In this document: positions 1,774 through 64,000 of the stretch, in pieces
Numbering within the stretch: the stretch's first letter is position 1
Layout of the letters: each line of letters starts with the position of its first letter
Origin: Cyanidiococcus yangmingshanensis
Taxonomy: Eukaryota; Rhodophyta; Bangiophyceae; Cyanidiales; Cyanidiaceae
Reading direction: 5' to 3'
DNA: 64,000 nt
Assembly (NCBI GenBank): GCA_013995675.1
Contig: VWRR01000013.1
Coordinates: forward strand, 310,001 to 374,000
The notes under the pieces: model-generated
Databases searched by the model: none
The model's input: only the letters and a program-made list of their open reading frames with translations
What the model was told of the DNA's origin: nothing
Translations under genes and position numbers: made by a program

Positions 1774-2494
1774 CTAGATCGTTCCACAAGACTCGATCTT
1801 CACCTCGCGGATCGGGCGGTCGCCTCTACCCGTCGGATTCTGTTCGATTTTTCGAGCAACATCCATACCCTCCAAAATCTTGCCAAAGACGACGTGGACG
1901 CCCGTTTAGATGACGTGTCATGTCGCCATCCAGCACGATAAACACCTGCGAGCCGTTTGTACCCGGGCCTGCATTCGCCATAGAGAGCGCTCCTGTTTCA
2001 TGGGGAATCGCAAAGTTCTCATCCTCAAAGCGATCGCCGTAAATACTCCGACCACCCGTACCGTCACCACGAGTGAAATCACCAAACTGGATGACGAAAC
2101 CAGGAATTACCCGGTGCGCAAAGCTGCCCTGATACCCAAAGCCCTTCTCTCCTGTGGAAAGGGCGCGAAAGTTCTCCGCGGTTTTTGGGACTTGGTTTCC
2201 GTACAGACCGAATACAATACGACCCGCTGGCTCACCGCCTATCGAAAAGTCAAAAAATACTTTTTGCGTGATGGTGAGATCAGCCGGGGCGGCAGCGCTG
2301 ACTACCGCAAGTCGCCGTCGATGCAGTCCGCGACATTGTCCGAGCCGGGTCGGCGACGCAAGCGTCACGCGGCTGCCCACCTTGGGCGCCGAACCTGGGC
2401 GACATGCCCCGCGCGCAACGTTCGTCTGACGCAAGGCCTGTTTCCGAAACCCGTTATTTACCCATGAGCTGATAAACGCGCTAAAGTTCTTCAT
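1774..2494 (-). CDS. Cyclophilin-type peptidyl-prolyl cis-trans isomerase with N-terminal presequence, split by one +1 frame break
   Basis: A cyclophilin domain follows an N-terminal extension of ~80 residues that is rich in Arg, Ser and Ala and poor in acids, which suggests import into the plastid or possibly the mitochondrion. Visible family motifs are VFFDFSIGGEPAGRI, the catalytic-site block FAHRVIPGFVIQFGDFTRGDGTGG, and MANAGPGTNGSQVFIV. The usual FF of the QFFI motif is VF here. Cyclophilins catalyse proline isomerisation in folding proteins. The frame that carries the start runs out of homology after HLNGR; the next base frame continues exactly with HVVFGKILEGMDVARKIE and ends in ESCGTI-stop at 1774-1776. 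One extra base near 1896-1897 (a GG pair on + strand) explains this. The first ATG in frame is at 2494; a TTG six bases upstream is not needed. The family call is firm; the compartment is inferred. Confidence 0.85.
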
Positions 2495-3397
2495 GATCAA
2501 AGGTTCTAAGAAGGTGTCGAGTGCTCCTGAGTCTAACCCCTAGGCGCCAAAGATACGCGAGCGCGACGTAGTGGTGCGGCGGCCCATCTATCACCAGCGC
2601 GCCGCTGATCCGCAATCGCGCAGGGGTTGTCTGTAGCGATAGCCGCGCTCTTCGAGATCTCCTCGATTCGGGTCGGGGTCGCAGTCACCCGTCCCTTACA
2701 CAAACGCGTTTTCCTACGAAGCACGTGATGACGTTTGTTTGGCTCACATGCAGCCCCAACAATATTTGTGTGCAATCTGCGTGATGGACGTAGAGCGTCT
2801 AGAGTTCAGGCTGCTGAGGCATTGTCACACGAACCTGAAAACCTGATGCGATCCGCTATCGCGCCAAGATGAAGCATAACGCTTTGGTGCGTGCAGCCAT
2901 CCAGGCGATTCAGTGTCGTGCGAAAGCGACCAGAAACAATCCCTTATGAGGATGTATTTCGCAGCGCTGAATGGCCAACATCCAACCACGCGGATCCCGC
3001 ACGGGACGTGTCCCTGGCGCTGCGGATGTGGTGGGTGGCACAAGATCGGCTGCGGGCTCGGGATCTGCAGCAGCCTGCCGGCGGCCCTGAATACGGGACG
3101 CGCTCCATCACGCGGGGCCGTCGTTCGCGGGGCCGACACGCTTGGCGCATTGCGGGCGACAGCATCCGTGTCCCCGGCACGCATTCGCTGGGATTTCGGT
3201 CAATGCGTGCGGGTGCGTCGTGGAAACGTTCGCGCGGGTGTTTCTAGCACCGATATAGCGCTCGCTATTGTGTCCGTGAGTGTTGCTCTCTAACTTGAAG
3301 CAAACCTTTCCGGACCGATTGTCCAAGAATTTTTCCCGTTCATGCCGCTGAGGAGGTGTTTGAGTTGGTGCACGGTTTGGAGTGTTCCGGCAAAGGC
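2495..3397. other. Intergenic region, divergent promoters of cyclophilin and the 3.4 kb gene
   Basis: About 900 bases between two divergently starting genes. Several overlapping open frames of 75-160 codons exist on both strands near 2.8-3.3 kb, but none shows a domain, and they are mutually antisense as expected for high-GC noise. I see no RNA gene. Confidence 0.45.
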
Positions 3398-62196: not shown

Positions 62197-62212
62197 CGAG
62201 CGCCCCCTGGTT

Positions 62213-64000
62213 TTACACGGTAAACGTAATGCGGGTACGATTCGAGTCCACCGACCAGATGTTGATATCTTCGTATTCACTGAGTGCAGTATAGAACTGC
62301 TGGTTGGTGAAACCGTTCTGGAGGACTTGTTCAAGAATATCGGCGATCGGGACGGTGCGTTCGCCACGATCAGCTGCATAGTCCCTAATCAAAAGGTAGA
62401 TACGGGTGGTGGCATCAAGTTCATGCCAGTTGCTGCGACTTGTCGCCTCGTTCGGGTCGTCGAGAGAGGCCTTGGAGCAGTTCAGCAGTCGCACAGCTTC
62501 GTCGATGTCTTCTCGAGAGACGCGGTCGGCGAAACGCAACCGCGCGAGTGCCTGAGCCAACCGGAGGGATACTGAGCAACGTGCGCGCTGTCGTGTGGCC
62601 GCGAGGCAGCCACCGTCGTTGCGTATCGTCCGCGCGTAAGGCAACGTAGTGCTCGACAATGTAGGACGTGAGCTCTGACGGCACGACTGGGGTAGACTGT
62701 CGAGCCTGGGCGATGTAGGCGCGTAGAAGGTCTGGCGACACCGGTTGGAAGCCGAGGTCTGGCGCTTCGCCCGTGCGATGCACGTACGTTACATGCCGAG
62801 CGAGCGCCATGTCTTTGTCCTGGTCGGGGGCATCAAGCAAGAGAAAGAGCAAGTCGAAACGCGAGAGGAGCGCTGCGGGCATGTTGATGTTCTCCGCCGC
62901 GGAGCGTCGTCGGTTGTAGCGTCCCCTGCACCGGATTTGCAGCGGCAAGGACTGCTGCTCGGGCATTCAGTGTGGTGGTGATACCCGCCTTGGCGATTGA
63001 GACAGTCTGCTGCTCCATGACCTCGTGAATGTAAGTGCGATCAATTTCGTCCATCTTATCGAATTCGTCAATGCAAGCGATGCCGCAATCGGCCATGACG
63101 AGGGCGCCGCCCTCCAGGGTGACATCACCCGTGTTGGTGTCACGCAGGAACCGCGGCGGTGAGGCCGACACCGCTCGAGCCCTTGCCAGTGGTATAGACG
63201 CCCCGGGGTGCGACGTTGCAGATGTAACGAAGCAGCTGGGATTTGGCGACGCCGGGATCACCCATGAGACACAGGTGAATGTCCCCGCGCACCCGCATAC
63301 CATCTGAGAGTTCGCGTGAGGGTGCTCCAACCAACTGCAGCAATAGCGCCTTTTTGACATCTTCGTGGCCGTAGATCTCTGGAGCAATGGAGCGGGCCAA
63401 CCGCTCATACACCCCGGTACTACCTGCCAGTTCAGCGATTTGAATCTGAATGAGCTGGTTGCGGGCAATCTCTCGCTGATAGTCTTTGTAGTCTCGTTTT
63501 TGCTGTCGGATGAAGGTTGCCTCCAAGTAAGTATCCGATAAGAGTCCCTGTTTCAGTGCTCTGAAACCGGAAATAAGCGCTGGCAGGAAAATGCCCGCCA
63601 CGGTGATATGATCGCCGGCAGCGCAAGCGTTGGAGAGCTCGCCCTGCAGCAAAACAGTCAAGATGCGCGGAATGCTTCCCACTGGTACATCCTGTGCCGG
63701 CTCTTGGATGCGTATCTCTTGGAACTTGCTGTATTTGAATGCCCGGTATTGGGGTATCAGACGTCCACCGCCTCCAGCAGGTCGTAAACATTCACTTCTC
63801 GAACAGAAAAAAAGAGGCATGTACTGGCGACCCGGAATGGGTTGATAGTACTCGGTCCCGCAAGCGTCGCAGACGTAGATCGCAACCTGCACCAGTGGGC
63901 GAACATCGAGCACACGAGTCACAATTCCGCTGACCTGTACCAGTCGACCGACATGTTCTGCACGAACATCACGAATCCGCAACGGTTTGTCCTCCGATCC
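62213..64000 (-). CDS. MCM7: MCM7, replicative helicase subunit, 5' end outside window, three +1 frame breaks
   Basis: The final ~595 residues of MCM7. It begins inside the N-terminal domain (KPLRIRDVRAEHVGRLVQVS). The zinc finger CDACGTEYYQPIPG with CSRSEC is present, then the AAA+ core: GDPGVAKSQLLRY (Walker A), CIDEFDKMDEIDRT (Walker B), SRFDLLFLLLDAPDQDKD (arginine-finger region) and the end VDSNRTRITFTV-stop. MCM7 is part of the MCM2-7 ring that opens origins and unwinds forks. Three breaks divide it: near 63147-63148 (a CC in TAAVLRDTNTG), 62923-62926 (a CCCC on plus; GRYNRRRS follows) and 62566-62568 (a GGG on plus; LRLAQALARLR follows). In each case removing one base restores the textbook sequence. 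MCM7 rather than MCM4/6 because of the C-terminal RTRITF. Confidence 0.93.

Follow-up and report, generated by a model that had tools for sequence, protein, structure and literature searches.

Single-base frame breaks in conserved genes of a Cyanidiococcus yangmingshanensis assembly: very probably consensus errors, some of them possibly merged heterozygous sites

The stretch analysed here (hereafter the window) consists of 64,000 nucleotides (nt) of the red alga Cyanidiococcus yangmingshanensis, at positions 310001–374000 of a contig referred to below as C5, in a genome sequence of 12,072,675 bases and 20 contigs. Its guanine-plus-cytosine (GC) content is approximately 55%, and its genes are long, eukaryotic and mostly without interruption. 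Among them are conserved genes in which the reading frame is lost and regained one base further on, and the subject of this study is the nature and origin of these breaks.

The initial annotation of the window named ten breaks, one each in genes for a cyclophilin, ARP4, DDB1 and a RAD5-like protein, three in MCM7 and three in ADAT3, and described all of them as requiring the skipping of one base (+1). We found all ten, and all ten are +1 (table 1); the probability of approximately 1 in 500 quoted for such uniformity corresponds to a two-sided p = 0.00195. For MCM7 and the ADAT3-like gene, as well as for RPB1 further along C5, sites were located by frameshift-allowing alignment to very close proteins, whereas for ARP4, DDB1 and the RAD5-like gene the sign was read from the start coordinates of the matching pieces modulo 3. 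The DDB1 break, in a gene which also matches DDB1 in the PDB, is supported by an event of the hidden Markov model (HMM) described below, at 16655 (21.0/34.4 nats). The +1-shifted piece of the RAD5-like gene contains the SNF2 domain (from profile position 17) and the upstream piece is without a Pfam match, so that the join between the two is based on the three-frame view and the HMM. Besides the named breaks, the HMM backs one more in the window, at 28422. An open frame at 49168–50355, next to a protein kinase gene (47873–49354, minus strand), contains many Gly-Ser and Gln repeats and is of doubtful coding status.

Table 1. Frame breaks and related features. Positions are those of the window unless a contig (C) is named.
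Feature	Position	Strand	Basis and remarks
Cyclophilin, +1 break	1893..1900	-	coding strand CGTCCACG between HLNGR and HVVFG; PF00160 2-120 in one frame, 121-158 in the next
ARP4/actin-related, +1 break	5942..6010 (interval only)	-	PF00022 3-212, then 286-409 in +1-shifted piece; three-frame view
DDB1, +1 break	16466..16655 (interval only)	+	CPSF_A 2-240, then 245-318 in +1-shifted piece
RAD5-like SNF2 ATPase, +1 break	22770..22840 (approximate)	+	HMM event 22789, 35.7/23.0 nats; three-frame view
Gene 25923-28806, +1 break	28422 (HMM position only)	-	support 37.3/49.9 nats
ADAT3-like, third extra base, TTCC	61377..61380	-	continuous in P0241; 33/33 residues locally
ADAT3-like, second extra base, A or T, no C/G run	61466..61467	-	frameshift-aware alignment
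ADAT3-like, first extra base, T or A, no C/G run	61890..61891	-	frameshift-aware alignment
MCM7, extra C in CCC run	62566..62568	-	alignment with P0001, P0002
MCM7, extra base in GGGGA	62922..62926	-	alignment with P0001, P0002
MCM7, extra base in TTCC	63147..63150	-	alignment with P0001, P0002
MCM7, fourth extra base, TACG	64070-64073, about 70 bases past window end		alignment with close proteins
RPB1, -1 break (gene C5:388244-393595)	C5:392632-392635, 18.6 kb beyond window		alignment with P0121
Allele-like copy pair 1, inverted	C11:100572-105859 / 182786-188064
Allele-like copy pair 2, direct	C11:148311-153985 / 232129-237800

The bias in sign is not confined to the window. An HMM that tracks the coding frame, trained on this sequence and penalizing both signs equally, was applied to 264 kb (C5:250001–434000, which includes the window, and positions 100001–140000 of both C1 and C10), of which 138 kb were called coding. 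It placed 25 breaks in the interior of genes, 22 insertions and three deletions (p = 1.6e-4), and 18 of the 91 genes contain a counted break. The ratio of insertions to deletions was 21 to 3 when support of at least 15 nats was required on both sides, and 30:7 and 33:7 at looser penalties. When indels of known sign were planted as a control, the sign was recovered for 102 of 104 insertions and 93 of 96 deletions, five being missed and none called with the wrong sign. Events at most 60 nt from a gene end had been excluded before counting; in minus-strand genes, apparent insertions situated two bases past the low-coordinate end were rejected as a model artefact. Within the window, this pass returned six insertions and no deletion, and missed the breaks in cyclophilin, ARP4 and ADAT3 (all three).

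Matches to four Pfam families were also followed across the whole genome. Among 34 split matches, paired by eye, 17 continue in frame, 15 are shifted by +1 and two by -1; eight of the 15 +1 junctions span gaps of 202–799 nt, which could hide other things, and at gaps of no more than 60 nt the count is seven against two. Insertions exceed deletions by approximately 7 to 1, a bias that is strong, not absolute. Breaks occur at approximately 1.6–1.8 per 10 kb of coding sequence, a rate similar to that of PacBio assemblies polished with Quiver and Pilon, for which a mean of 16 indels in 100 kb is given (PMC5100563).

The earlier statement that no clear -1 case exists thus holds for the window as tested and fails for the genome, where RPB1 and CCT1 provide clear cases and a SNF2 gene on C3 is probably a third. 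At the RPB1 site, the close protein P0121 (introduced below) reads NNDLPGMPRATLKSG without a gap. In CCT1, on C1, one base is missing before KTLAVNAA, and VIPNTLAVNAA of PDB 3iyg_A corresponds residue for residue to VIP followed by KTLAVNAA. Deletions at similar frequency had been proposed as the observation that would end the same-sign pattern; clear ones were found, yet insertions still prevail 22 to 3. This count is kept as the HMM produced it, without reclassifying its deletion at C1:103950, in a pyrophosphatase gene, which is better read by eye against PDB 1m38_A as two insertions, or that at C1:135345, in a Myb-like gene, the nature of which is ambiguous.

Are the breaks, then, present in other members of the lineage? 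The nearest named proteins to RPB1 and the ADAT3-like gene are CCYA_CCYA14G3701 (97% identity; our P0121) and CCYA_CCYA14G3709 (99%; P0241), both from Cyanidiococcus yangmingshanensis. They are encoded on a contig of 529,369 bases, whereas C5 has 532,630 bases, so that they come from an assembly other than that of the window and very probably represent another strain of the same species. For MCM7, the reference P0001 is located on an 8,574-base contig, and its sequence is not the same as the window's own reading. At all nine exactly located events (eight insertions and one deletion), the close proteins are continuous across the site; residues are identical at 811 of 827 positions for MCM7 against P0001, 1778 of 1809 for RPB1 against P0121 and 283 of 287 for the ADAT3-like gene against P0241, and the proteins bridging the eight insertions are 98–99% identical. 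The more distant P0002 (MCM7) and P0242 (ADAT3-like) are also unbroken at the located sites, and P0003, P0122 and P0243 (jgi and lgn records of probable metagenomic origin) read through as well, as judged by eye.

The absence of the extra bases from another strain would also be expected if they were real, strain-specific insertions, marking either pseudogenes or a mutator strain. Such insertions, however, would have broken RPB1, MCM7, CCT1 and DDB1, all essential in eukaryotes, and MCM7 four times within approximately 1.5 kb, so that we judge this explanation very unlikely. Short introns of length 3n+1, mistaken for frame breaks, are another conceivable source, as the species does possess some 35–36 introns (PMC9812998, PMC13353863). 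Against this, the whole excess at each of the eight located insertions is a single base, and 18 broken genes of 91 in 264 kb are far above 36 introns per genome; we give introns practically no credence as the cause. The TCP1 chaperonin gene at C18:203671–205608, in which two in-frame matches lie 300 nt apart and a stop falls within each match, may contain one of the genome's few real introns.

A comparison of a different kind is offered by C11, on which at least two stretches are duplicated at approximately 1% divergence. The two pairs of allele-like copies, one 5.3 kb and the other 5.7 kb long (approx. 11 kb in total), differ by 109 substitutions, including 79 transitions. Copies of this kind are expected to persist when a heterozygous diploid has not been purged, and a heterozygosity of 0.15–2.2% is given for published Cyanidiococcus strains (PMC13353863); a true duplication is less probable than haplotypes that escaped purging and were placed in the same contig. 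Of the two copies of a kinase-family gene, one carries an additional A, with an HMM break, and the other is free of both (one of one clear case), and no HMM break is common to both copies within the aligned stretches. The remaining small indels between copies (1, 2, 3 and 6 nt) lie outside HMM genes, apart from those of a second gene discussed below. The last 20 kb of the window, with MCM7 and ADAT3, have no second copy in the genome.

Taken together, an extra base confined to one C11 copy and orthologues that are continuous within the species argue strongly against +1 translational frameshifting and in favour of consensus errors. Genuine frameshifting, with the extra base in both DNA and messenger RNA as in Euplotes, would account for the strong bias in sign. 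It could also draw on a 0-frame TGA located 7–8 nt downstream of four of the eight located breaks, a coincidence with a chance of approximately 0.01 (four or more of eight). Euplotes, however, shifts frame at a stop codon, and none of the eight sites has a stop at the point of shift: four stops are 7–8 nt and four 70–145 nt away. We set the TGA pattern aside for this reason, and since the other evidence contradicts it. Indeed, the extra base is absent from orthologues in the species and in its relatives and from one of two allele-like copies, -1 breaks exist, and no codon, base or motif common to the shift sites was found among the eight located insertions. Genuine frameshifting is accordingly, in our estimation, extremely unlikely.

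The distribution of the breaks along C5 was also considered. When all 23 events on this contig are taken, seven fall within 3 kb (61.4–64.1 kb), which none of 5000 random placements reaches, and nine gaps are shorter than 1 kb against 3.3 expected (p = 0.0006). This set includes five events because the initial annotation had named them, and the cyclophilin and ARP4 positions in it are approximate; with the 18 HMM events only, p = 0.007 for short gaps and p = 0.06 for the densest 3 kb. We consider, with high confidence, that the breaks arose as single-base errors in the consensus of a long-read assembly and are not features of the genome or of its translation. That residual single-base insertions fit best had already been proposed, and continuous conspecific and related orthologues, the one-copy extra base on C11 and the clustering now support it.

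The argument from homopolymers, by which error had been set apart from frameshifting, proved less useful. The extra base was said to sit usually in a run of C or G; this is possible at five of the eight exactly located insertions (runs of at least two) and impossible at the other three, which lie outside C/G runs, so that the argument is weak. In the HMM events, the C/G-run weight is 0.255, in agreement with duplication of a base (0.252; P = 0.40–0.46) and marginally above random insertion (P = 0.05). On the coding strand, the candidate bases are TACG, TTCC, GGGGA and CCC in MCM7, TCC in RPB1, and TA, AT and TTCC in the ADAT3-like gene.

These data fit ordinary long-read insertion errors, either random or duplicating a homopolymer base, that would have persisted in patches of low coverage or poor polishing, heterozygosity having no role. 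The same bias in sign, the same rate and the clustering would follow, the C/G-run weight matches base duplication, and MCM7 62566–62568 is a pure extension of CCC. PacBio errors are, moreover, described as mostly indels and close to random, with Nanopore errors richer in deletions (PMC4719071, a review). Ordinary errors of this kind are a serious contender, somewhat short of probable in our view. What they do not predict is the identity of the removable bases. Indeed, at seven of the eight located insertions, two different bases can be removed, against an expected proportion of 0.47 for random and 0.44 for duplicated bases (p ~0.02); without the first MCM7 site, at which no single removal gives a perfect match and any of the four bases serves equally well, the count is six of seven (p = 0.03–0.04). 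Either of two different neighbours (bracketed) can be removed with the same protein resulting in GT[TC]CTG, CAGGG[GA]CGC, CG[TC]CTG, GG[TA]GAA, AC[AT]GGA and AT[TC]CGA. The C11 kinase case has the same form, AC[AG]GGC in one copy and ACGGGC in the other; by eye, and with less weight, so do the breaks in cyclophilin, the pyrophosphatase, kinases on C6, C12 and C15, and the SNF2 gene on C19.

These forms suggest a more specific origin, and we regard it as evenly balanced whether many of the extra bases are heterozygous single-nucleotide polymorphisms (SNPs) with both alleles written in tandem. In a heterozygous diploid whose haplotypes differ by a SNP, the haploid consensus would at times contain XY where X or Y alone belongs, for the most part at synonymous positions; in rarer cases it would omit both alleles, which could yield the few deletions, and the remaining extra bases would be ordinary insertion errors. 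A toy likelihood for a 50:50 SNP, using assumed error rates like those of PacBio continuous long reads (CLR), ranks one allele best, both alleles second and neither worst. A consensus that fails would, on that ranking, favour both alleles over none, and the observed bias in sign could arise in this way. A homologue-free score for synonymous transitions, computed on the 22 HMM insertions, is 0.209, whereas planted random or duplicated bases give 0.158–0.167 (p = 0.005–0.024) and planted merged SNPs give 0.206. For the 17 events which had not been used to form the idea, p = 0.026–0.030. This excess, too, is not expected from ordinary insertion errors. Canu's permissive approach is described as incorrectly mixing haplotypes (PMC7545148). 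The merging of SNPs is a sub-mechanism new relative to the initial annotation, and among the open-access papers found for consensus errors at heterozygous sites, none describes alleles written in tandem in its title or abstract.

Several points weigh against these interpretations. For consensus errors in general, the allele evidence from C11 comes from one clear gene only. In a second gene, which we take to be JmjC-like, the copies differ by two mutually cancelling 1-nt indels 233 nt apart, and neither has an HMM break. The CCYA gene models, for their part, were built with homology tools that might bridge a frameshift. Furthermore, the two published chromosome-level assemblies for which polishing is described were polished with Illumina reads and Pilon (PMC9812998, PMC13353863), by which most such errors should have been removed. 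For the merging of SNPs in particular, the toy likelihood ranks X, and not XY, as the best consensus for a 50:50 SNP. When the transition condition is dropped, the plain score of compatibility does not reach significance (P = 0.08–0.42 for the 22 events, 0.36–0.66 held out). The MCM7 site at 62566–62568 offers CCC only, which does not agree with a synonymous change. Finally, two deletions at third bases of proline codons are uninformative, as half of random deletions leave equal choices.

Some further features of this assembly were recorded. C5 opens with the telomere repeat CCCCCCATT, the reverse complement of AATGGGGGG, which is listed as the telomere repeat of C. yangmingshanensis and Cyanidioschyzon merolae (PMC13353863). 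The repeats are clean at the start of the contig (1–400), and at its far end (532231–532630) only degenerate AATGGGG-like stretches are present. Two near-universal motifs of 18S ribosomal RNA (rRNA), searched in the 12 Mb (one exactly, one with up to two mismatches), gave no match; this assembly may lack the rRNA genes or contain them in a variant or damaged form. A scan for transfer RNA (tRNA) genes, in which 63 of 292 candidates were scored, gave at least 16 matches, too few for a test of errors; several are 83–123 nt long, a length that suggests tRNA introns or rearranged tRNA genes.

The breaks matter for any use of this sequence. With 18 of 91 HMM genes broken in 264 kb, gene counts, pseudogene calls and inferred losses taken from it would be wrong, and the tempting but mistaken claim of a frameshifting red alga is closed off. 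If SNPs were indeed merged, one-sided +1 breaks at synonymous positions would be a cheap sign of a diploid collapsed to a haploid consensus, and a nominally haploid assembly would hold a hidden, readable map of its heterozygous sites, in a pattern that imitates +1 programmed frameshifting.

Three known systems invite comparison. The errors treated with Kastor in long-read drafts (PMC12007338) resemble those found here in that single-base indels in conserved genes, absent from relatives, create false pseudogenes; however, the main example of a first long-read draft in that source shows mostly false deletions, which follow homopolymers, whereas here insertions prevail by approximately 7 to 1. 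As in the mixing of haplotypes described for Canu (PMC7545148), allele-like copies are left on C11 and other stretches are single-copy. That description does not extend to both SNP alleles being written in tandem, which in the present case is a reading of the sequence. The programmed +1 frameshifting of Euplotes shares the sign of the breaks studied here. It differs in that none of our eight sites lies at a stop, orthologues are continuous within the species, -1 cases occur and one allele-like copy is unbroken.

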